IMG/VR virus record: IMGVR_UViG_3300042731_003040 | Location: 1-64,000 of that record | Length of the DNA: 64,000 bases | Source of the DNA: a virus | Reading direction: 5' to 3' (one strand) | Shown: in pieces, positions 840 to 37,595 of the stretch | How the letters are laid out: each line of letters opens with the position of its first letter | Numbering within the stretch: the stretch's first letter is position 1 | Translations under genes and position numbers: made by a program | The notes under the pieces: model-generated | The model's input: the letters and a program-made list of their open reading frames with translations, nothing else | The model's database searches: none | What the model was told of the DNA's origin: nothing

Positions 840-1275
840 GGTCGCTGGGAGGAATAGAGTCTGGTCGGGGAGGCAGCGTTGCTACGTTGCACCAGAAGAG
901 TTGGATGACCTCAACGGTTTTTTGCAGAGCGTCGAATCCGAGAGGTTTTCGGATGTAGGCGTTGCAGCCGGTGGCGTATGCCTTCCTGACATCCTCTTGA
1001 GAGTTTGAGTTCGTGAGGATTATCACGGGCAGAGCTCTGAGTCGGGGGTTTTTCCTGATTTCCTTCAGAACTTCCAAGCCATTGTACTTCGGGATGTTCA
1101 GATCCAAGAGGACCAAATCTGGTCTAGGAGAGTAGTCCTTAAGGTGGCGGAGGGCGGCTTCTCCGTCAGTTTCCACGTGAAGAGTGTGGTCGATAGCTGA
1201 CTCTTCTAGGGCCAGCTGGACCAACTCCACATCACGGGAATTGTCTTCAATCAGGAGAATGCGGAAGTGACTCAT
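823..1275 (-). CDS. single-domain response regulator (CheY/Rcp1-like receiver)
   Basis: The 150-residue protein is a stand-alone receiver domain. The acidic pair is in LLIEDN (E10, D11), the phosphoacceptor is D58 in LVLLDLNIP, the switch Thr is in VIILTNS, and the conserved Lys is in YIRKPLG. There is no output domain, as in CheY or the Rcp1 family that pairs with phytochrome-type kinases. The start MSHFRILLIE was chosen over an upstream in-frame ATG because the receiver fold begins there. It overlaps the 3' end of the kinase gene upstream by 29 bases, so the two are translationally coupled and probably form a phosphorelay. How its output is read is not visible. Confidence 0.9.
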   Translation of the reverse strand: MSHFRILLIEDNSRDVELVQLALEESAIDHTLHVETDGEAALRHLKDYSPRPDLVLLDLNIPKYNGLEVLKEIRKNPRLRALPVIILTNSNSQEDVRKAYATGCNAYIRKPLGFDALQKTVEVIQLFWCNVATLPPRPDSIPPSDPRREE

Positions 1276-2314
1276 TTTGTGCCGGGAGGGTGAAGTGGAA
1301 AACAGTCCCTTGATTGGGCTCTGATTCGGTCCATATCTTACCCCCATGGTGTTCGACGACACGTTTGACTATGGCCAGTCCAATCCCCGTTCCTGGATAC
1401 TGTTCAACAGTGTACAGACGGGTGAATACTCCGAAGATTCGGTTGGCATGCCTCATGTCGAAGCCGATTCCATTGTCCCTCACCGAAATGAGCCATTTGT
1501 GGTCATTGAAAGGCTTTGCGGTAACTTCGATTCTGGGGGGTCCCTTTCGATACTTGATGCTGTTGGAGAACAGATTCTGGAAGACTTGAGCCACCATGCT
1601 ACGGTCGCCTTGGATGATGGGCAGGTCAGGGTCTAACTGGAACACTACGCCTGACTCTTTGACGTACCGTACTAAAGCCTTTTTGGCTTCCTCGATGGCT
1701 TGTCGGAGGGGGAAGGTCTTTTGGAGGTTGACTCGGCTGGCCCTTGAGAAGGAAAGCAAGTCTTCGATCTTCTGCGCCATGTGTTCGGTGCTGGAGATGA
1801 TCTCGTCCAGGAAGTGTTTCTCTTCTTCCCCTAGGCTGTCGTAGACCCGTCGCTTGAGCAGGGTAGCAAATCCGGCTATGGCAGTGACAGGTTCTCGGAG
1901 GTCATGCGAGGTAATGTAGGCGAACTGATCTAGGTCGTCACTCTGTCGTTGCAGGTTGTTCTGCAGCGTTTTCAGGGTGTTTAGATCTTGCAGCTCTATG
2001 AGATAGTACCCTTGGTTGCTGGGGATCTTGGCTACTGTGACCAGAGCATGGAACGTGGATCCATCCCCTTTCACGTACTTTCTCTCCGCTGGCTCTCTCA
2101 AAGGCAGTGTGATGCTGTGCCCTTGTTTGGCGAACTGGTTGAGAGGTTTGCCTACCAGATACTCAGGCTTCTCTTTTAGGAGCACGCACAACCGTCGGTT
2201 GGCAGCAATGATGGTGCCTTTCTGGTCGAGTACAGCTTGGGCTAGGTGAGATCCTTGGAAAGCCGCCCTACAAAGAAACTCGGCCGTGTTGTTCCTGCAG
2301 AAAGGCTCAGTCAT
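1247..2314 (-). CDS. PAS-domain sensor histidine kinase
   Basis: The 355-residue soluble kinase has an N-terminal PAS-like domain (about 20-115), a short coiled linker, and a HisKA domain with the phospho-accepting H137 in YITSHDLREP. The ATPase domain has an N box (LFSNSIKY, N251), G1 (DNGIGFD, 280-286) and G2 (GTGIGLAIV, 308-316). No transmembrane segment is seen, so it senses a cytoplasmic signal or works with the membrane-anchored regulator encoded just upstream. Its start overlaps that gene's end by 8 bases and its end overlaps the next receiver gene. The HisKA style (SHDLREP) is that of phytochrome-like kinases, but the bilin-binding GAF/PHY domains are absent. Confidence 0.93.
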   Translation of the reverse strand: MTEPFCRNNTAEFLCRAAFQGSHLAQAVLDQKGTIIAANRRLCVLLKEKPEYLVGKPLNQFAKQGHSITLPLREPAERKYVKGDGSTFHALVTVAKIPSNQGYYLIELQDLNTLKTLQNNLQRQSDDLDQFAYITSHDLREPVTAIAGFATLLKRRVYDSLGEEEKHFLDEIISSTEHMAQKIEDLLSFSRASRVNLQKTFPLRQAIEEAKKALVRYVKESGVVFQLDPDLPIIQGDRSMVAQVFQNLFSNSIKYRKGPPRIEVTAKPFNDHKWLISVRDNGIGFDMRHANRIFGVFTRLYTVEQYPGTGIGLAIVKRVVEHHGGKIWTESEPNQGTVFHFTLPAQNESLPHSPD

Positions 2315-3239
2315 GGGAGGAAGAGGGGCTCCAAAACTTCAACATGCTGGATTGGACGCTAGCATAATACGTGGCCCCGGCTCCTGCCAGCACCCCCAGC
2401 AAAGTCAGGATTCCCAAGATGACTTTGGTACGGTTGTGCATCTTGGTGGTTTGAATCTGCGTTTGGTGGCCCGTCACGACTTCCTGCAGGTCCAGCATTG
2501 AAGGGCGATCGGCTTCGAGGTTGGTAACCCTTTCCTCTAGATTCTTGTGGTCGTTGACTAGTACATCTACCTGGGTACGCATCGAGGGCCGGTTGGAGTG
2601 TCCTTGAAGGATCTCCTTATCCAGCACTTGAAGCATCTTCATCATGATGTCTTGCTGAGTCTCGATCTTGACGACGGTTTTCCCCTGTTCTTGCATGTGC
2701 GTGTAGATGTTCCTGGACAGGTCGGCTACGGCTGCTGAGGTTTCGACCGTTCTGCTGGAGATGGCTTGATGTTCTCCACTTTGGTGAGCCATTAGCAGAG
2801 CGGCTTTGGTTCGCTCCACCTTCTTGACCAACGTAGCTTCTGCAGGGGGTACCCGAATACTGGTTCGGCATTTTTCTATGGCGAACATGATTCGACGGAA
2901 GATCTCTTCCGCTTCTGTGTAGTTCTTGACGATGTAGTCGGCCGCCCCGTCCTTGACCATGTTCAGGGCCAACTTACGGTCCTGGTTATGGGTCATGATG
3001 ATGATCGGTACATCAGGAAACCTTTGGTGGAGGGTTTGGAAGGTTTCCTTGCCGGCCGAGTCAGGGAGGGAAAGGTCCAAGATCACCACATCTATGGGCA
3101 TCCTGGTCAATTGCTTGACAGCCTCTTCCAGATTGCAGGCTTCCAGGATCTCGGATCGATCGGTGGCGAACCGTTCTTCCAGCAGGTATCGCAGCAGCTC
3201 CCGGTCTGTCCGGGAATCTTCAACCATTAGCAGTCGCAT
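2307..3239 (-). CDS. response regulator with coiled coil and C-terminal membrane anchor
   Basis: Residues 1-125 form a receiver domain: acidic pair E7 and D8 in MVEDS, phosphoacceptor D55 in VVILDLSLPD, T83 and K105. Residues 130-265 are charged and helical, probably a coiled coil. Residues 273-294 (VILGILTLLGVLAGAGA) form a single hydrophobic helix, followed by a short polar tail. This architecture would tether a receiver to the inner membrane. It is the first gene of a minus-strand trio, and its stop overlaps the kinase start. The in-frame upstream extension was rejected because the receiver fold starts at MRLLMVEDS. The domain calls are firm; the membrane role is inferred. Confidence 0.85.
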   Translation of the reverse strand: MRLLMVEDSRTDRELLRYLLEERFATDRSEILEACNLEEAVKQLTRMPIDVVILDLSLPDSAGKETFQTLHQRFPDVPIIIMTHNQDRKLALNMVKDGAADYIVKNYTEAEEIFRRIMFAIEKCRTSIRVPPAEATLVKKVERTKAALLMAHQSGEHQAISSRTVETSAAVADLSRNIYTHMQEQGKTVVKIETQQDIMMKMLQVLDKEILQGHSNRPSMRTQVDVLVNDHKNLEERVTNLEADRPSMLDLQEVVTGHQTQIQTTKMHNRTKVILGILTLLGVLAGAGATYYASVQSSMLKFWSPSSSHD

Positions 3240-3360
3240 GTTCGCTAGTGAGGTTTTACAAGTGTTTTTCTCGGTGTACCAACATGGTACCTGGTCCTGT
3301 GGGTGTCCATATTTGACCACCGTTTGGTCGGATCTGACCGTAATCGGCTGGTCGGGCAAT

Positions 3361-3433
3361 GCGAGGCGAGCGAGCTGGTGAACGCACCTCTCTCACACAG
3401 AGGATCCGCTGGGTTCGATCCCCAGGTCTCGCA
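3361..3433 (+). tRNA. tRNA-Val (CAC)
   Basis: The acceptor stem gcgaggc pairs with gtctcgc. The anticodon arm is cctct-ctcacac-agagg (anticodon CAC) and the T-arm ctggg-ttcgatc-cccag. The discriminator is A. CCA is not encoded; the next bases, cta, are the stop codon of the minus-strand gene at 3434. It closely resembles the Val(GAC) gene at 4461 in its acceptor stem and D-arm, so the two look like paralogs with different anticodons. Confidence 0.88.
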
Positions 3434-3934
3434 CTACTCTTCTAGGAGGCGTTCCCAAGAGGTCTTGGGAGGGTTCCAGGACACGGGGTTCTTTAGTTTG
3501 GGGGGTGGCGGGGTTCCCATTTCAAACTCGCTTCTCACCTCGTTGTCTGCAGTTACGTGGATGCGTACGTCTCTCCCTAAGAAGACCTGTCTTGGGGGTC
3601 CTTGCCGTACCTGGATGATGTCATTCTCTTTGATCTGGAACAGGAAGGTCAGGCGTCCTTCTTCCAACACGTAGTCTTCTCCGGGCATCATTAGCAGTCC
3701 GTTGACGTACACGTACGTTTCTTCGAGGATGGAGGAGGCGTCGATTTGGCAGAGGAACGCAAGATTTCCTTCCCCTCTTCTGGTGTAGTCTCTACCAGGA
3801 ACCAACGGTCGTCCGTTGACGTATACCGACATACTTTGGAGTTCATCAGAACCTGAGGTTGAGGGGAGTCGTCGTCTTCTGCTGAGGGTTGTTCTCCAGA
3901 GGTTGAGAAGCCACATGAAGATGCGTCGGATCAT
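3434..3934 (-). CDS. protein with two YVNG-type repeats
   Basis: The 166-residue protein begins with a basic, hydrophobic helix (MIRRIFMWLLNLW). Two copies of a beta-rich module follow, one starting VYVNGRPLVPGRDY and the other VYVNGLLMMPGEDY. Each is followed by a hydrophobic strand and an acidic turn. Modules of this kind are seen in phage virion appendage proteins, but here the gene sits in a tRNA island far from tail genes. The protein ends in KTSWERLLEE, a tail shared with two neighbouring small proteins. The start was placed at MIRRIF, overlapping the upstream gene's stop (ATGA). Function is unknown. Confidence 0.7.
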   Translation of the reverse strand: MIRRIFMWLLNLWRTTLSRRRRLPSTSGSDELQSMSVYVNGRPLVPGRDYTRRGEGNLAFLCQIDASSILEETYVYVNGLLMMPGEDYVLEEGRLTFLFQIKENDIIQVRQGPPRQVFLGRDVRIHVTADNEVRSEFEMGTPPPPKLKNPVSWNPPKTSWERLLEE

Positions 3935-4128
3935 TTCAGTCCTTCTTCCAGCAGTCTTTCGTGCCAGGTCTTTGGGCCTACGTAGGTGCAACGTACGTAT
4001 CCGTCTTGAGCGGGCCCCTTGATGACCGTGTTCCAGTCTCGGATGGGTTCCTTGACCTCACCCACGATCTTGACAGGCGAGACACGGGTTGAAGTGTCCG
4101 TGGGATCGGATACCATAGTGCTCGACAT
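3931..4128 (-). CDS. small protein with C-terminal WHERLLEE motif
   Basis: The 65-residue protein starts MSSTMVSDPTDTSTRVSPVK. It has no recognisable domain and ends GPKTWHERLLEEGLK. Its stop overlaps the start of the next minus-strand gene by 4 bases, so the pair form a translationally coupled unit. The C-terminal motif recurs at the end of that next gene and of the gene at 6507. The shared tail suggests a common partner or handling signal; this is inference. Confidence 0.6.
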   Translation of the reverse strand: MSSTMVSDPTDTSTRVSPVKIVGEVKEPIRDWNTVIKGPAQDGYVRCTYVGPKTWHERLLEEGLK

Positions 4129-8585: not shown

Positions 8586-8765
8586 ATGAAGTGCCCGAAG
8601 TGTGGGAGTACCAACGTCAAGGGATTGATGGTGTTCGATCCTGACTGGCGTGCAGGTCACTCCAAGTGTCGGGATTGTTGCTTCATAGACCATTGGACTT
8701 GTTTTTGCGAACCTCCTTGGAGGCTGACCGTTGTCCCTAAAGTACGCAGCCCAGAAGGTGAGTGA
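8586..8765 (+). CDS. small zinc-ribbon-like protein
   Basis: The 59-residue protein starts MKCPKCGSTNVKGLMVF and has two CxxC-type pairs (C3/C6 and CRDC), the usual layout of a zinc ribbon. It ends with a basic tail. The first in-frame ATG after the terminator was chosen; its Shine-Dalgarno site is weak. It overlaps the rtcB start by 35 bases, and the ribosome binding site of rtcB lies inside it, suggesting coupling. Its role is unknown, possibly RNA or protein binding beside RtcB. Confidence 0.6.
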   Translation: MKCPKCGSTNVKGLMVFDPDWRAGHSKCRDCCFIDHWTCFCEPPWRLTVVPKVRSPEGE

Positions 8766-10137
8766 CGGCCACTACGTGTTGCCCAAAGTGGCAACCATGA
8801 AGGTCGAAGTTCACGCCTTTCTTTCGGAAGCCCTCTATGAGGCTTCTGAGGAGCAGGTGTGGGATCAGGCTCGGAATGCCGCTTCCTATGAGGGAGTGGT
8901 GGGGGCCTATCTGATGCCGGATACCCACACTGGGTTTGGGGTACCCATCGGGGGTGTGGTGGTGACAGAAGACACCCTCATTCAAGCCGGATCGGGATAT
9001 GACATCTCGTGTGGGGTGCTCTACATGAAGGTATCGGGGCTTTCTGCCAAGGGTACTCGTGGTAGGTACAACCGAGAGCGTTGGATCACCGAGGTGGAGA
9101 AACGTGTGGCGTTGGGAGTGGGATCCAAGCGCCCCAAGCTGATGCCCCAGTTCTCCCCAGCGTTGTTGGAGAGTATCTTCCGATATGGGGCCAAACCTCT
9201 TGGGACGAAGCCTGATGTATGCGAAAGGCAGTACATTCCGGTTCCCGAAGGCACAGACTTCACCAAGATCGAGAAAGCCTATGAGAAAGCCCTGCCCCAG
9301 CTCGGATCTCTAGGGGGCGGCAACCATTTCATTGAGATGCAAGTGGACGAGGCCACCGGGGATGTTTGGGTCATGATCCATTGCGGGTCCCGGGGTTATG
9401 GTTGGCAGACAGCCAACCACTACTTCTACGAGGGAGCCCAGCTTCGAGGTCTCAGGAAGAACCAACGGGAATCTTCTTGGCTGAGAATCGACGAGCCCTT
9501 GGGTAGGGAATATTGGGCCTACCACAATTCGGCAGCCAACTATGCCATCGCCAATCGCCACACCATCGTTTCCGGCGTCCAGGAGGCCCTAGGAGAGGTT
9601 TTTGGGGCTGAGGCGGAGGTCTACTACGAAATCAGTCACAACCTCGTACAAGAGGAAACTCTGGTCCTTCCCGACGGAACTACAAAGCGAGGGTTCGTGC
9701 ATCGGAAAGGGGCCACCCGAGCCTTTCCGGCCGGGCATCCTGATTTGGTAGGTACCAAGTGGGAGCCGACGGGGCACCCGTGTTTGATTCCGGGGTCGAT
9801 GTTCTCAGGGGCTGCCATTCTCTTTGCCGAACCTCAGGCCCATCAGTCGGCTTGTTCGGTCAACCATGGGTCTGGCCGGGTGCTCGCTCGGGGGCAGGCC
9901 AAAAGGAAGCTTCATCACAAGCAGCAACGAATCGACGACCAGATGCGGACGGTCAAACGTCGGTTGGGGGGCGTCGAAGTAGAGGGCATCGTAGGCAATA
10001 GCAAGCACACGCCTTTGGACGAATGTGGAGAGGTCTACAAGGATCTGGACGAGGTGCTTGTCGTTTTGCAGCAGACAGGTATTGCAAGAGTCGCTCATCG
10101 TCTTTACCCTGTGGCGAACCTCAAGGGAACGGACTGA
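8731..10137 (+). CDS. rtcB: RNA-splicing ligase RtcB
   Basis: The 468-residue protein carries RtcB metal and guanylate motifs: SGYDISCGV, GGGNHFIE, HCGSRG, EISHNLVQEE and VNHGSGR, the last holding the His that is guanylated in the family. RtcB joins 2',3'-cyclic phosphate or 3'-phosphate RNA ends to 5'-OH ends using GTP and Mn2+. It repairs tRNAs cut by anticodon nucleases or toxins, a sensible job in a phage rich in its own tRNAs. The TTG start at 8731 has GGAGG seven bases upstream. An ATG at 8798 would remove conserved N-terminal sequence. No archease or RtcA gene is nearby. Confidence 0.95.
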   Translation: MSLKYAAQKVSDGHYVLPKVATMKVEVHAFLSEALYEASEEQVWDQARNAASYEGVVGAYLMPDTHTGFGVPIGGVVVTEDTLIQAGSGYDISCGVLYMKVSGLSAKGTRGRYNRERWITEVEKRVALGVGSKRPKLMPQFSPALLESIFRYGAKPLGTKPDVCERQYIPVPEGTDFTKIEKAYEKALPQLGSLGGGNHFIEMQVDEATGDVWVMIHCGSRGYGWQTANHYFYEGAQLRGLRKNQRESSWLRIDEPLGREYWAYHNSAANYAIANRHTIVSGVQEALGEVFGAEAEVYYEISHNLVQEETLVLPDGTTKRGFVHRKGATRAFPAGHPDLVGTKWEPTGHPCLIPGSMFSGAAILFAEPQAHQSACSVNHGSGRVLARGQAKRKLHHKQQRIDDQMRTVKRRLGGVEVEGIVGNSKHTPLDECGEVYKDLDEVLVVLQQTGIARVAHRLYPVANLKGTD

Positions 10138-10149
10138 CTCGACTCAGGC

Positions 10150-12175
<2,026 letters not shown>

Positions 12176-29080: not shown

Positions 29081-29353
29081 ATGTCTCTCGATCGACTACA
29101 GAAGAGATTTGAGGATCTTTCTCAACGGTACCACAAGGCTTCTGGGAACAAAGCCAAGCTGGAAGCCCAGCTGGAGATGAAGAAGAAGGAGTTGACTGAT
29201 CTTGTAGAAGAGATCAAGGCAGCTGGTTTCGACCCTAAGAAGCTGAAGGAGGCTGTGGACGATGCTGAGAAAGAGCTGGTAGCTCTCATGGATGAGTACG
29301 AGTCCAAGCTCAAGAGTGTGGAAGAGGCCCTAGAAGCCTACAAAAACAGATGA
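29081..29353 (+). CDS. small coiled-coil protein
   Basis: The 90-residue protein is almost wholly heptad-patterned and charged (DRLQKRFEDLSQRYHKASG, KLKSVEEALEAYKNR). The only break, near AAGFDPKKLK, could form a turn, giving a helical hairpin. AAGGAACAG precedes the ATG. Its position between the two SbcC halves raises the possibility that it completes or braces the coiled coil, but similar small coiled-coil proteins are common in phage recombination clusters. Confidence 0.7.
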   Translation: MSLDRLQKRFEDLSQRYHKASGNKAKLEAQLEMKKKELTDLVEEIKAAGFDPKKLKEAVDDAEKELVALMDEYESKLKSVEEALEAYKNR

Positions 29354-29361
29354 GGATGGAG

Positions 29362-30609
29362 ATGAAGTTCAACGCATTGGTGAAGGATTTGGTGGCATCC
29401 TTGGATGTCGTTTCTGTGGTGCCTCCCAAGTATCCGGGGGCTGACAAGAGAGATTCTGGCTACTTGTTCGTGCTCAAAGAGGACAGGTGTCTGGTCTACT
29501 CTTCTGATGGGTCTCGGGTAGTTCGGTCAGAGTTTCCTGTGACGGAGGTAGAAGGCACTGGATCCTTCGTGTATCCCGGGGATGTCAAGGCCAGCGCCCC
29601 TTTGCGATTCTTGGACCAAGATTCGGAGATCACGATGGAGGCTGGTCACGAGGAGACCGGAGACCGTTACTTCGTCAAATACCAGGTGGGCCAGGCCAAA
29701 TCGGAGAAGTCCACTTACGACCCGAGGCGGTTCTCTACCTTCGACGATGCTCTACAGAGGGCCGGGGAAGGGTTCGAGGTTGTCACTTCTGTGTTGAGGA
29801 CTTCCTTGCAAATGGCCAAGCCTTACGTAGCTAATAGTTCGGATCCGGACAGTGCTTTTGCTACGGTGTGCTTGTTCGACGATTCGAACGAAGCCTGGGC
29901 CGCCGGCAACGGGGTCGTTTACGCAGCCGACAACAAGGGCAGCACGGCTTTTTTCTTCCAGTGCAGTGAGTTGGAAGGAAAGGGGCTATCGGTTCATGGC
30001 CAACACCTGCCGTTCGTGGGGGCTTTTTTGTCTAGGTGTGGGGTCAAAACCCGGGTTCTTGTAGGGGAGTCGATGACTTACCTTGTCAACGACGATAACC
30101 AGGTCTTTGGTTGGAGTCGTTGCCAGAGTAATCACGATCACTTTCGCTACCCTGCTCTGAAGAAAGACCAGTTCGTTCTGCGCATGTCTTTGGAGAGTCT
30201 CCTGAACGCTCTTCGACACATGCAAGCGGAGATGGGGTCTCAACAGAGCAGGATCAACATGCGGTATTCTCACGAAGAGAAGATCCTGCAGTTCCGTGGT
30301 AGGGGCGGTTCGAACAAGGTGCAGAGTGTCCCGGTGGCAGTCACTCCTGTGAAAGACGAGGATGAGGCTGGAGGGGGTTCTGCTGGAGACTCAGAGGACT
30401 TTAGCCTCAACGCAAACGTCAACCATCTCATTTCGTTGGTGGAGACTTCCAAAGCTCACGAGGTGAACTTGAGAGTGAGTGCCGCTGGCAAGAAAGCGTT
30501 CTTCCGGACCATCGATGAGTTCCGTTTGGACGACAAAGGGAGAGTTGTGGCTGAGGTAGATGGGACCTACTTGTGCAGCGTGACACGATTTGCAACGACC
30601 CAAGCCTAG
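29362..30609 (+). CDS. beta sliding clamp-like protein
   Basis: The 415-residue protein begins MKFNALVKDLVASLDVVS, the way bacterial DnaN begins. It shows the repeated clamp pattern of a helix followed by strands (RCLVYSSDGSRVVRSEF; FVLRMSLESLLNALRHM; FSLNANVNHLISLV) and ends DGTYLCSVTRFATTQA. It is longer than typical DnaN (about 370), with an acidic Gly-rich insert near residue 335-350. It would encircle DNA as a processivity ring loaded by the phage delta/delta'/gamma proteins. ATG at 29362 has GAGG at good spacing; an ATG at 29350 is also possible. The similarity is distant, so confidence is moderate. Confidence 0.65.
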   Translation: MKFNALVKDLVASLDVVSVVPPKYPGADKRDSGYLFVLKEDRCLVYSSDGSRVVRSEFPVTEVEGTGSFVYPGDVKASAPLRFLDQDSEITMEAGHEETGDRYFVKYQVGQAKSEKSTYDPRRFSTFDDALQRAGEGFEVVTSVLRTSLQMAKPYVANSSDPDSAFATVCLFDDSNEAWAAGNGVVYAADNKGSTAFFFQCSELEGKGLSVHGQHLPFVGAFLSRCGVKTRVLVGESMTYLVNDDNQVFGWSRCQSNHDHFRYPALKKDQFVLRMSLESLLNALRHMQAEMGSQQSRINMRYSHEEKILQFRGRGGSNKVQSVPVAVTPVKDEDEAGGGSAGDSEDFSLNANVNHLISLVETSKAHEVNLRVSAAGKKAFFRTIDEFRLDDKGRVVAEVDGTYLCSVTRFATTQA

Positions 30610-31298
30610 TCTCTAGGGTCCAGGCTCTTGGAGAGTCTTCGGCCAGATTGGTTGCTTTGCGTGATCGTCTGGTCGAAGACTTGAAGGCCAAAGAGACAGA
30701 GGTGGAGACCTTGGGGAGCACGATTGACAAGCTCACCAAGGTAGGGGAGTTGTTTCGCAAGTTGATGGATCTGTTGGTTCATGAGCAGGTCCAGGCAGTC
30801 AAGAGTCTCATTTCTAAAGGCTTTCAAGCCATTTTCTACGACCTTGATCTGTCCTTCGAGGCGGACATCCTGTCCAAGCACAACCGGGTTTGGATCGACT
30901 TCTTCATTCGGCACGGGCAACCAGACGACCCTCTCTCACATCGAGGGAAGCCCTTGGACTCGTTTGGAGGAGGCCCCTCTAGTGTGGCCTCTTTGGTGTT
31001 GCGTATCATCACATTGCTGAAGCTCAAGCGCTATCCGTTGCTGGTGTTGGACGAGGCTTTAGGGGCGGTATCTGACGAGTACACGGAACGTACGGGTATG
31101 TTCCTGAACAAGCTGGCTGACGAAACGGGGATCGATATTCTGTTGGTGACGCACAAGGCGGCCTATCTAGATCATGCTAACCAAGCGTACCGCAGCTCCG
31201 AGGGGATAGAGGGGAGTGTACGGTACTTGATGCTCAAGGGCCTTCGACATGAAGACAGCACGAGAGATCGAAAACCGAATTCGTCAGTTGTTGGTTGA
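30573..31298 (+). CDS. C-terminal half of SbcC/Rad50 (signature, Walker B, H-loop)
   Basis: The 241-residue protein starts at GTG 30573, overlapping the clamp gene by 37 bases. Residues 15-75 are coiled coil. The ATPase C-lobe follows with ABC signature SFGGGPSSVASLVLRI, Walker B with D-loop LLVLDEALGAVSDE, and H-loop LLVTHKAAY. There is no Walker A and no CxxC. This is exactly what the gene at 25858 lacks. Together they would form one ABC-type head, assembled from two chains. Its coiled coil is much shorter than that of the N-half (about 60 against 250 residues), so the two arms do not match in length. Confidence 0.87.
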   Translation: MQRDTICNDPSLVSRVQALGESSARLVALRDRLVEDLKAKETEVETLGSTIDKLTKVGELFRKLMDLLVHEQVQAVKSLISKGFQAIFYDLDLSFEADILSKHNRVWIDFFIRHGQPDDPLSHRGKPLDSFGGGPSSVASLVLRIITLLKLKRYPLLVLDEALGAVSDEYTERTGMFLNKLADETGIDILLVTHKAAYLDHANQAYRSSEGIEGSVRYLMLKGLRHEDSTRDRKPNSSVVG

Positions 31299-33709: not shown

Positions 33710-35104
33710 ATGTGGGACGTTAAGTATCGTCCAAAGAAGTTCTCTGACGTGCTGGGCCAACCCGGCATCGTACAGGTGTTGAAGGCTAGGCTGAAGAACG
33801 GCACTGCTCTAGACACTTCGTACATTTTTTCCGGGGGTCATGGGATCGGCAAAACCACCCTGTCCAGGATTTTGGCCAGGGCTTTGCTTTGTCATGATCT
33901 TCAGCCTGAGGGAGAGCCCTGCAATCAGTGTGACAACTGTCGAGACATCTTGAGCGAGACCTCTCATGCGTTTCAGGAGCTGGATGCTGCCAGCTCGGGG
34001 ACCATAGACAACGTACGTTCGATGGTCGAGTCTCTGCCCTTTGCTGTGCAAGGGGCTGCCAAGAGGATCATCCTCTTCGATGAGATGCATCGCATGTCTC
34101 GGGATAGCCAAGACGTGTTGCTGAAGCCTATCGAAGACAAGCGTTTGGTGGGCATCTTCTGCACTACTGAACCTACCAAGATCCGAGCTACTATTCAGTC
34201 CAGGTGTGAGGAGTTCACGCTAAGGCCAATCACTCGGGAGGACATCCTGGCTCGAATGAAGAGGGTCTTAGAACAAGAGGGGGTCACCTACGATGAAGAC
34301 GCTGTGAACATCGTCATCGACTATTCAGGGGGACATGTACGGGATGTGCTCAACCGGCTGGAGATGATGGGACAGCTTGGGGAGATCACCCAGGAGTCTG
34401 TTCGAGAGTATCTGAACCTGTCTGTGGTCTCGCTTTACTATGAGATCTTGTTGTCTCTGGGGGACCCTGCTGTCTCTTTGCGGTTAGTAGATCAGGCTGT
34501 GGATCGAGTGGGGGCGGATCAGGTGACCTCTGGTTTGGCCGAAGCTGCTATGAGCTCCTATCGGCTGGCTCACAAGATGCATTCTGACTTCGTGTATGCC
34601 GATCGAAAACTGGCAGTGAAGGTTTACGAGGTCTACGGGGATGCTGTGGTTCAGTTAGCTAGGTATTTCCTGAGGGATCGTAAGGTAACGGCTCCAGGGT
34701 TGTTGTGTGATGTGGTCTTGTGTGCCGGAGGGGTCCCTTCTGCGGTAGCTGAGAGCACTTCTCAGGTGGTCGTGAACGCCCCTCAGAGCGCCCCTGTTTC
34801 GGTTTCTTTACCAGAGGCCCCTACTGCTCCTACTGCCTCCAATCCTGTTTCTGAGCCAACCTCAGCCGTTGCTGCTGTGTCTGGTTCTGAGACCTTGAAA
34901 CCAGAAAAAGTCCCTGCTCCTGCCACTAGAACGTTGACTAGTTTGGATCACAAGGCAATATCTCCTGACATGCCCCGAGGTAGTTGTCCTGAGGAGCCTT
35001 TGGTGATCCCCAAAGGGACCAGTGATCGTGCCAATGACCTTTTGACTCCGGCGGAATGGCGACAGGCTTTTCAGAAGCTCTACTTGAGTCAAAATCGTGG
35101 GTGA
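33710..35104 (+). CDS. dnaX: DNA polymerase III gamma/tau subunit (clamp-loader motor)
   Basis: The 464-residue protein has the DnaX opening WDVKYRPKKFSDVLGQP. Walker A is GGHGIGKT (42-49), and the zinc module is C61, C71, C74, C77 (EPCNQCDNC). Walker B is LFDEMHRMS and the arginine-bearing motif is TIQSRCEEF. The collar domain follows to about 350, then a Pro/Ala/Ser-rich linker and a short helix at the end (PAEWRQAFQKLYLS). This is the ATP-driven part of the loader, partnering the phage delta and delta'. Length fits gamma more than tau, though the end helix may contact polymerase. A ribosome binding site (TAGGTAGG) precedes it. Confidence 0.95.
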   Translation: MWDVKYRPKKFSDVLGQPGIVQVLKARLKNGTALDTSYIFSGGHGIGKTTLSRILARALLCHDLQPEGEPCNQCDNCRDILSETSHAFQELDAASSGTIDNVRSMVESLPFAVQGAAKRIILFDEMHRMSRDSQDVLLKPIEDKRLVGIFCTTEPTKIRATIQSRCEEFTLRPITREDILARMKRVLEQEGVTYDEDAVNIVIDYSGGHVRDVLNRLEMMGQLGEITQESVREYLNLSVVSLYYEILLSLGDPAVSLRLVDQAVDRVGADQVTSGLAEAAMSSYRLAHKMHSDFVYADRKLAVKVYEVYGDAVVQLARYFLRDRKVTAPGLLCDVVLCAGGVPSAVAESTSQVVVNAPQSAPVSVSLPEAPTAPTASNPVSEPTSAVAAVSGSETLKPEKVPAPATRTLTSLDHKAISPDMPRGSCPEEPLVIPKGTSDRANDLLTPAEWRQAFQKLYLSQNRG

Positions 35105-36914
35105 ATGGTTAGTTATAGAGCTGTCCTCTCGGTGTGAGGGGGAGGACCCTAGAGTCCTTCAGGAGGCTTTGACGCGCTTGGTCAAAACCTCTGAGGTGTT
35201 CGTTCCTGCGGCCGTCACAGAGATAGGGGACGATGTTGTCTACTCATATCTCTTGGAGGGGTATGCCTTCGTTCGTCGAGACAGCCCTGATTCCACTTAT
35301 TTGAGATTGGAGAACAGCCGTTACGTAGAGTCTGTTTTGACGGAGCCTCGGGGTTCAGGGGGGAGTCGTCGGTTGTCTACTGTATCAGAAGAGGACATAG
35401 ACAGGTTTCGGCGACAGGTGAAGGCTATTTCAGATCAGGGGATCAGCGTTGGAGACACCGTCACAATCACCTCTGGTCCCTATCGGAATATAGAGGCTAC
35501 GGTAGTCGAGGACATCGCAGAAGAGGGGATGGTCCAGGTGCACGTGAAGCTGCGCTCCAAGCAGTCTCTGGTGACGTTGCCACGAGGCTTCTTGAGGGTA
35601 GTAAAGAGGGCCCCTCTTTCCCCGGTCTACAATCGGATGGCTTCCCTAAGGGCCTGGTCCACGATGGCTACGGCCCTCTTGGAGTGGGAGGAAGGCGATT
35701 GGAGCCAGGTCCAAGCGGCGTATGACCGGTACCATCGACTGCACCAGTGGTCCAACAAAGGGAGGCTTCTCTACTCCTTCCTAGGGTCCAAAGGAATTTT
35801 GGACCATTCTTATCGGGATTTGCAGCGGAGACTGCAACGTTTGTCTCGTGTAAAGGCAGCGGCTAGAAAGGCCAGTAGGATCTGTAATCTCATAGCCTTT
35901 TCTAGGGGGTGGGCGGGACCCCGTGATTTGGAGTCTCTTCAGAACAAACTGATGGATTTGGCGTGGCTGGATGACGTGATGCGTCGAGTTCAGGAGCTCC
36001 ATCGTAGCTACAATGTACTGAATCGTAGGTTAACCCATAGGAACGAGAAGCGTAAGATGGTTCAGAACGTGTTGATTGATGGGCACAACTTGGCTTTTCG
36101 GTGCATGTATGCCCCTGGAATGTCCAGGCTGTCTGATAGTCAGGGACGTCCTACGGGGCTTATTGTGGGGTTCCTTCGTAGCCTGGGGGCTCTTCGCAAG
36201 AAATACCCCACGGCCCGCTTTTGGGTTACTTGGGACGGCTCTTCGCAAAGGCGCAAGTCGTCATTTGCTGACTACAAGGCAAATCGTCCAGTTAGGGAGG
36301 CCGATGAGTCTGGGTTTGACCAAATGGCTTATGTACGCAAAGTTATTGTGTATTTAGGGGTGACTCAAGCCTTCAACCCAGAAGAAGAAGCGGATGACGT
36401 GATTGGGGCTTTGGTGAAGGGGGACTTGGTTTCCCAGAAGAACGTGATCTTTTCCTCCGACAAAGATCTCCTACAGTTGGTTACACACGACACTTTCCTG
36501 TTGATCCCGGCCATCGGAAGTAGAAAGGAAATTTTGTTCGAAGGTCCCGAAATCGTTGAAGAATATATGGGGGTTCCACCTGGAAAAATGGTGGAGTTTA
36601 GGGCTCTGTGTGGGGACCCTAGTGACAACATTCCTGGGGTGCCTAGAGTTCCAAAGAAGGTATTGCGAGCATTGATTCAGGCCCATGGTTCGGTGGATGG
36701 CATATACAAATCTGGATTGGCTGGTTTGACAAGAAATCAATATGATCGCTTGCGTTCCGCCGAACCTCAGGTGAGAATTAACCTAGAACTGATGGCGTTA
36801 GTTGACGTCGAAGTCTCTCTCACGTATCCAGATGTAAACAGCAGTGTTGCTCAGCAGTTGATGGAGGAAGTGGGGATCAAACCCCAACCCATCCTTAAAG
36901 CGTTTGGATTGTAG
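35097..36914 (+). CDS. fusion of NusG-like NGN-KOW module with 5'-3' exonuclease
   Basis: This is one unbroken 605-residue frame. Residues 1-110 fit a NusG NGN domain (GEWLVIELSSRCEG, YLLEGYAFVRR) and 114-170 a KOW domain (GDTVTITSGPYRNIEATVV). Residues 172-320 are basic and helical. Residues 321-605 are a full-length 5'-3' exonuclease/FEN domain: D328 in VLIDGHN, DYKANRP, EEEADDVIG, SSDKDLLQLV and the helix-hairpin-helix stretch CGDPSDNIPGVP. NusG proteins bind the RNA polymerase clamp; FEN enzymes remove RNA primers and flaps. An internal ATG at 36057 could also yield the nuclease alone. The gene overlaps dnaX by 8 bases. The domain calls are strong; the joint function is inferred. Confidence 0.88.
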   Translation: MGEWLVIELSSRCEGEDPRVLQEALTRLVKTSEVFVPAAVTEIGDDVVYSYLLEGYAFVRRDSPDSTYLRLENSRYVESVLTEPRGSGGSRRLSTVSEEDIDRFRRQVKAISDQGISVGDTVTITSGPYRNIEATVVEDIAEEGMVQVHVKLRSKQSLVTLPRGFLRVVKRAPLSPVYNRMASLRAWSTMATALLEWEEGDWSQVQAAYDRYHRLHQWSNKGRLLYSFLGSKGILDHSYRDLQRRLQRLSRVKAAARKASRICNLIAFSRGWAGPRDLESLQNKLMDLAWLDDVMRRVQELHRSYNVLNRRLTHRNEKRKMVQNVLIDGHNLAFRCMYAPGMSRLSDSQGRPTGLIVGFLRSLGALRKKYPTARFWVTWDGSSQRRKSSFADYKANRPVREADESGFDQMAYVRKVIVYLGVTQAFNPEEEADDVIGALVKGDLVSQKNVIFSSDKDLLQLVTHDTFLLIPAIGSRKEILFEGPEIVEEYMGVPPGKMVEFRALCGDPSDNIPGVPRVPKKVLRALIQAHGSVDGIYKSGLAGLTRNQYDRLRSAEPQVRINLELMALVDVEVSLTYPDVNSSVAQQLMEEVGIKPQPILKAFGL

Positions 36915-36923
36915 GAGTGTGAT

Positions 36924-37595
36924 ATGGCTGCTTCTGGGTATGTGATCCCTGTAAATCCTCACGAGCTTGCAAGTAGGGTTCCCACCCACGATCCTTGGTA
37001 CGACGAAGAGAATACGTTCGAAGACGATGACGAAGAGGAGGATGGTTTTTCTGAAGTCGATGAAGAGGAAATGGCTGCTTTGGTAGCCACCATTGACTAC
37101 GAGAGCCAGATAGCCCCTTTTTTGGATCGTATTCCCGAGCGTGAAGCAGACCTGATCTATCTCTACTTCATCCAACACAAACGACAAGCGGATATAGCCA
37201 CCATTTTTGGAGTGACACAGGCGGCTATCTCCTATCGATTGGACCGGGGTATCAAGCGAATCAAGTTCCTCTTGGACATCCCTCAAGTGACGGAAGACGA
37301 CCTTCGGGCTGACCTCCCTGAAGTGTTCCCGGACTCGATGGATATCGATATCTTGGTGGGTATGTGGAAGACAACCTGCCAATCGGAAGTAGCCTCTCAA
37401 CTCCGGTTAACACAGGGCCGGGTGCGCCACCGGTTCTTCAAAGCTGTCCGGGTGTTGCAGGAGGCGGCCGAACAGAACGAGAGGTTAAAGCCTTACAGTC
37501 AGATTTTCTCGAAAATTTCAAGCAAGCGGTTCAACATTCTGAGGGAAGTTAAATTACCACAGTGGTCAAATCGGGGTGGTGACGAGTGCTTGTGA
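36924..37595 (+). CDS. sigma region 4-like transcription regulator with two HTH domains
   Basis: The 223-residue protein has an acidic N-terminal 60 residues (FEDDDEEEDGFSEVDEEE). A first helix-turn-helix at about 70-115 follows (IPEREADLIYLYFIQHKRQ, then ADIATIFGVTQAAISYRL), which looks like sigma region 4. A second HTH lies at about 145-180 (SEVASQLRLTQGRVRHRF). It is the last gene before the terminator that separates replication and virion genes, a fitting place for a middle or late gene regulator. There is no region 2, so it would not act as a full sigma factor alone. A perfect TAGGAGTG site precedes the ATG. Confidence 0.75.
   Translation: MAASGYVIPVNPHELASRVPTHDPWYDEENTFEDDDEEEDGFSEVDEEEMAALVATIDYESQIAPFLDRIPEREADLIYLYFIQHKRQADIATIFGVTQAAISYRLDRGIKRIKFLLDIPQVTEDDLRADLPEVFPDSMDIDILVGMWKTTCQSEVASQLRLTQGRVRHRFFKAVRVLQEAAEQNERLKPYSQIFSKISSKRFNILREVKLPQWSNRGGDECL

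Follow-up and report, generated by a model that had tools for sequence, protein, structure and literature searches.

The roles of NusG-type transcription factors and of flap endonucleases (FENs) are well established, and what we infer here is how the two are combined in a single phage protein. Elongating RNA polymerase carries NusG-type proteins along (PMC7819879). Discrete bacterial FENs cleave RNA-DNA hybrids and share in Okazaki processing (PMC10191290), while T4 RNase H, also a FEN, removes Okazaki primers, RNase H or E. coli Pol I being needed (PMC3012046). A connection between a phage replisome and host RNA polymerase is found in T4 late transcription, which involves the gp45 clamp, gp55, and gp33 (PMC2988020, PMC7892883).

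We analyzed a 64,000-nt stretch (the window) of a 108-kb virus record, in which one gene encodes an NGN-KOW module, a linker, and a FEN (Table 1). As in NusG, RfaH, and LoaP (PHROG 6386 phage antiterminators), an NGN domain precedes a KOW domain, with the conserved W, the GYxF motif, the KOW signature, and NusG folds; unlike these proteins, the fusion adds a helical linker of about 145 aa and a C-terminal nuclease and lies in a huge-phage replication cluster. The full fold and the metal-binding acidic residues are held in common with discrete FENs (B. subtilis FenA, M. smegmatis FEN, T5 D15, T4 RNase H, and the PolA N-terminal domain), but these are known alone or joined to PolA, whereas here NusG is N-terminal to the FEN. 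The fusion lies between clamp-loader and sigma-like genes, which is comparable to the parts of T4 late transcription, although the T4 activation complex contains neither NusG nor a nuclease, and the huge phages studied here gave no beta-clamp Pfam match (PF02767 was absent in nine records).

Table 1 Features of the fusion locus in the window
Feature	Coordinates	Strand	Basis or details
dnaX-like clamp-loader subunit	33710..35104	+	Pfam/PHROG
NusG-linker-FEN fusion gene	35097..36914	+	GTG start, 605 aa; 39 non-identical fused relatives in IMG/VR
NGN-KOW module, residues 1-171; KOW motif from near residue 118	35097..35609	+	PHROG, TIGR00922, family profile, Foldseek, AlphaFold2
Helical linker, residues 172-320; helices 175-195, 199-230, 238-271, 275-316	35610..36056	+	AlphaFold2
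In-frame internal ATG, 7 codons before first catalytic Asp D328; candidate free-FEN start	36057..36059	+	Conserved start-type codon
FEN / 5'-3' exonuclease domain, residues 321-605	36057..36914	+	Pfam, Foldseek, invariant acidic residues
Sigma-70 region 4 protein	36924..37595	+	Pfam Sigma70_r4, 7.4e-13

The similarity of the N-terminal part to NusG was weak with the single sequence (PHROG 6386 antiterminator, 7e-9; TIGR00922 nusG, 2.5e-6) and firm with a family profile (T. maritima NusG 2lq8, 2.5e-8; 2xhc, 1.1e-5). Foldseek retrieved the NusG/RfaH chains 9a56, 6gov, 2lq8, and 8phk with E values of about 1e-9 to 1e-8, and AlphaFold2, run with 35 relatives, modeled this part with a pLDDT of mostly 85-90. 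The 2lq8 profile match, Foldseek, and AlphaFold2 all gave the domain order of the NusG/Spt5 family, NGN and then KOW. The original prediction of an NGN-KOW module at residues 1-170 was therefore borne out, the predicted structure being NusG-type rather than some other fold. Residues of the NGN core and KOW (W4, E8, F35, P37, GYxF, and R153-S154) are kept from the stand-alone through the fused relatives.

The C-terminal part matched both Pfam domains of the nuclease above cut-off, 5_3_exonuc_N (PF02739, 2.3e-30, residues 325-489) and 5_3_exonuc (PF01367, 7e-14, residues 493-579), corresponding to the N-terminal resolvase-like and C-terminal SAM-fold domains of FENs. In Foldseek it matched the fold of the M. 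smegmatis FEN (2e-17), and its pLDDT was about 95 in the same AlphaFold2 run with 35 relatives. Nine acidic residues (D328, D380, E431, D433, D434, D455, D457, D507, and D510) were invariant in 35/35 aligned fused proteins and follow the metal-binding T5/T4 pattern; the nine of T5 are those that we take to be expected of a FEN active site. The Pfam, Foldseek, and residue data thus agree with the complete FEN with catalytic acidic sites that had been proposed for residues 321-605, and cleavage of flaps and RNA-DNA hybrids is predicted for this half. The acidic residues of the T4 FEN are given in PMC3012046.

No polymerase domain was found in the fusion ORF, which distinguishes it from DNA polymerase I, in which a FEN and a family A polymerase domain are joined. 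Throughout the fused clade, a PF02739 search detected one FEN per record. A PolA polymerase was present in 9/9 records tested, and those also searched for PF02739 gave no second match; in G001, a 437-kb contig discussed below, PF00476 lies at 29891-31174, apart from the fusion at 332606-334420. Judging from this gene content, the fusion is the phage's only FEN and the partner of a PolA-type DNA polymerase that has no FEN domain. In some records, the PolA domains were spread by in-frame insertions, possibly inteins (W01 (LR745208.1), 285077-288784, 1763 codons; G012, 296443-298908, 1422 codons).

The two halves are read in one frame of 605 codons, without internal stops in the standard code. 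An artificial joining of two genes by a missed stop, a frameshift, or mis-assembly has a negligible probability and was rejected: separate genes do occur in some relatives, but 39 non-identical fused genes from many metagenomes share the frame, the linker is conserved, and the independent IMG/VR contig G001 of the window phage is 99.99% identical to the window region over 17.8 kb. ORF calling, domain searches, and the predicted fold likewise support the single unbroken frame through NGN-KOW, linker, and FEN that had been read from the sequence.

AlphaFold2 modeled the linker as four long helices (pLDDT 50-86). The original description of a basic helical linker at residues 172-320 holds for its helicity and, in the window, for its charge (net +14), but basicity is not a family trait, as net charges across the family run from -13 to +12; linker length ranges from 91 to 184 aa. 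Among close pairs whose dS could be measured, dN/dS was 0.09-0.31 for the linker, 0.03-0.08 for NusG, and 0.03-0.11 for the FEN. From its dN/dS values, the linker is under purifying selection, that is, translated and constrained. The AlphaFold2 model of the whole fusion (35 relatives in the input) had a pTM of 0.52 and no fixed arrangement of the domains, which suggests that the NusG and FEN halves move freely relative to each other.

Relatives were gathered by searches with NusG and FEN alignments. The same architecture was found in 39 non-identical genes, all on IMG/VR huge-phage contigs, and these represent 22 lineages when a lineage is defined by less than 70% FEN identity. The fusion has been kept over long evolutionary time in a large and diverse group of huge phages. 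Other relatives, represented by LR745208.1 and IMG/VR records, encode in the same dnaX/sigma-like slot a stand-alone NusG of about 200 aa, without the linker, that is 27-32% identical to the NusG part of the window; here the order is dnaX, NusG, sigma, and PF02739 was absent from six records of this clade, one of 485 kb, these records being possibly incomplete. In L075, L076/77, L087, and L147, the order is dnaX, NusG, FEN, sigma, all as separate genes, and in L014, a 320-aa NusG-linker protein, which retains the linker as a 138-aa tail, and a 309-aa FEN are encoded by genes overlapping by 4 nt (ATGA). The 39 fused genes have the order dnaX, NusG-linker-FEN, sigma. Few state changes are required on a tree of these arrangements, and the relatives, as compared by sequence, show a path from NusG alone through neighboring NusG and FEN genes to the fused gene. 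Trees grouped L014 with the fused L039, but the root was unsure and an AU test (p 0.57) did not reject a tree in which L014 falls outside all fused genes; the interpretation of L014 as a proven fission was thus dropped, and it may represent the ancestral split or else a later break. Since NusG and FEN are separate in L014, L075, L076, L087, and L147, covalent joining is dispensable in some relatives.

No fused relative was detected in 50,697 phage records, a GTDB scan for cellular fusions gave matches to the FEN part only, and a fold search of BFVD and the PDB retrieved FEN or NusG separately, with none spanning both among the best 50 matches listed. The open-access literature searched named no NusG-FEN fusion, and the huge-phage survey PMC7162821 makes no mention of NusG. 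Within these collections and papers, the claim that no system with this domain pair had been described holds.

The internal ATG originally pointed out at 36057 is present in the window, and a start-type codon occupies this junction position in 29/39 fused genes (ATG 22, GTG 5, TTG 2), or 18/22 lineages compared with a background of 7%. The split FEN of L014 begins at the same position. All five lineages with a non-Met residue there use GTG or TTG, the chance of which, as the product of their own codon-usage frequencies, is about 0.008. Among the exceptions, one subgroup has an ATG at -11 to -13, in L039 a GTG at -8 follows GAGGAG, and L074 has no start codon near the junction. Shine-Dalgarno-like energies before the internal start averaged -5.4 kcal/mol, compared with -2.7 for the background and -6.8 for neighboring gene starts; the site in the window is a weak one, at -3.8 kcal/mol. 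As the synonymous-codon control (-4.9) came near the observed value (-5.5) and was not exceeded, the signal may stem from amino-acid content, and these energies, although above background, were dropped as proof of internal initiation, which they support weakly. Because the start codon is conserved before the FEN in 18/22 lineages, a free FEN may also be made as a second product. This conserved codon, together with the separate adjacent genes of relatives, indicates that the covalent NusG-FEN link is probably not the sole working form.

The placement among replication genes, with an overlap of dnaX, was likewise confirmed: the overlap is 8 nt, and the window also encodes delta', delta, an NAD ligase, RecD2, RecA, an SbcCD-like pair, a primase, and a B12-type ribonucleotide reductase. 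In relatives with enough flanking sequence, dnaX adjoins NusG, and the sigma-70 region 4 gene is the conserved downstream neighbor with or without the fusion, in both clades. The product of this gene is possibly a phage-specific sigma or a T4 gp55-like factor. Upstream of the replication genes, a conserved 419-aa protein (29350-30609) gave a weak Hus1 match (E 0.24) and, with a profile searched against the PDB, no meaningful relative; it could be a divergent sliding clamp. Genes for an RtcB-type RNA ligase (8731-10137) and a GroEL-like chaperonin (10454-12175) lie close together in the window. The dnaX of LR745208.1 (L003, 6161-8047, the same as L026, 4161-6047) has an intein-looking, in-frame insertion of ~145 aa in the ATPase domain, between residues ~136 and 282. 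In L036, dnaX (1231-3945) encodes 904 aa with a large insertion, perhaps an intein, and in its close relative L037 (1253-3945), which has a stop or frameshift, the gene is broken into two frames.

We consider the best explanation, with a probability of about 0.5, to be that the full-length protein tethers its FEN to host RNA polymerase and that the short form serves Okazaki maturation. The tested records, which are possibly incomplete, gave no match to RNA polymerase beta or beta' domains; because no phage multisubunit polymerase was found, an active NusG module would have to work on the host enzyme, on which it should dock. The long, flexible helical arm would then hold the phage's only FEN near the transcription bubble, and the full-length nuclease at transcribing polymerases would cut 5' RNA/DNA flaps and RNA-DNA hybrids, its targets being R-loops and transcripts met by forks. 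Initiation at 36057 would yield the free FEN for removing Okazaki primers on the lagging strand. The originally suggested factor that would couple transcription to the removal of flaps or primers is still the leading reading, and we propose more tentatively that such a transcription-coupled flap endonuclease on elongating host RNA polymerase, together with the free form, clears R-loops and transcription-replication conflicts in huge phages.

The main rival is that the join serves co-expression only, with NusG (as an antiterminator) and FEN (in primer removal) working independently and the fusion fixing their ratio and timing in a dnaX-NusG-FEN-sigma operon. The separate or overlapping genes of the relatives, the conserved junction start codon, and the occurrence of the dnaX-NusG-sigma order without any FEN are consistent with this; yet if the internal start is usable, the gene could be split near the junction by a stop or frameshift without harm, and still 22 lineages keep an intact frame; moreover, the linker is constrained and even kept as a tail in the split L014. 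We therefore regard co-expression as the sole role as rather doubtful. It is distinctly improbable that the NGN-KOW module has lost the targeting of RNA polymerase and is instead a replisome, RNA, or ribosome adaptor bringing the FEN to, for example, the clamp loader. The weak single-sequence similarity to NusG, the adjacent dnaX, and the assistance that gp32 and the gp45 clamp give to T4 RNase H (PMC3012046) would fit such an adaptor, but the NGN core and KOW residues conserved from stand-alone to fused relatives and the sigma-type transcription gene downstream in both clades argue against it.

Both halves of the protein are textbook families, and their union suggests that transcription and DNA replication are directly and physically linked in these huge phages. 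If the NGN domain binds RNA polymerase, the fusion would physically connect transcription with Okazaki and R-loop processing, and the natural fused, split, and nuclease-free versions would be a ready test case for the effect of this coupling.
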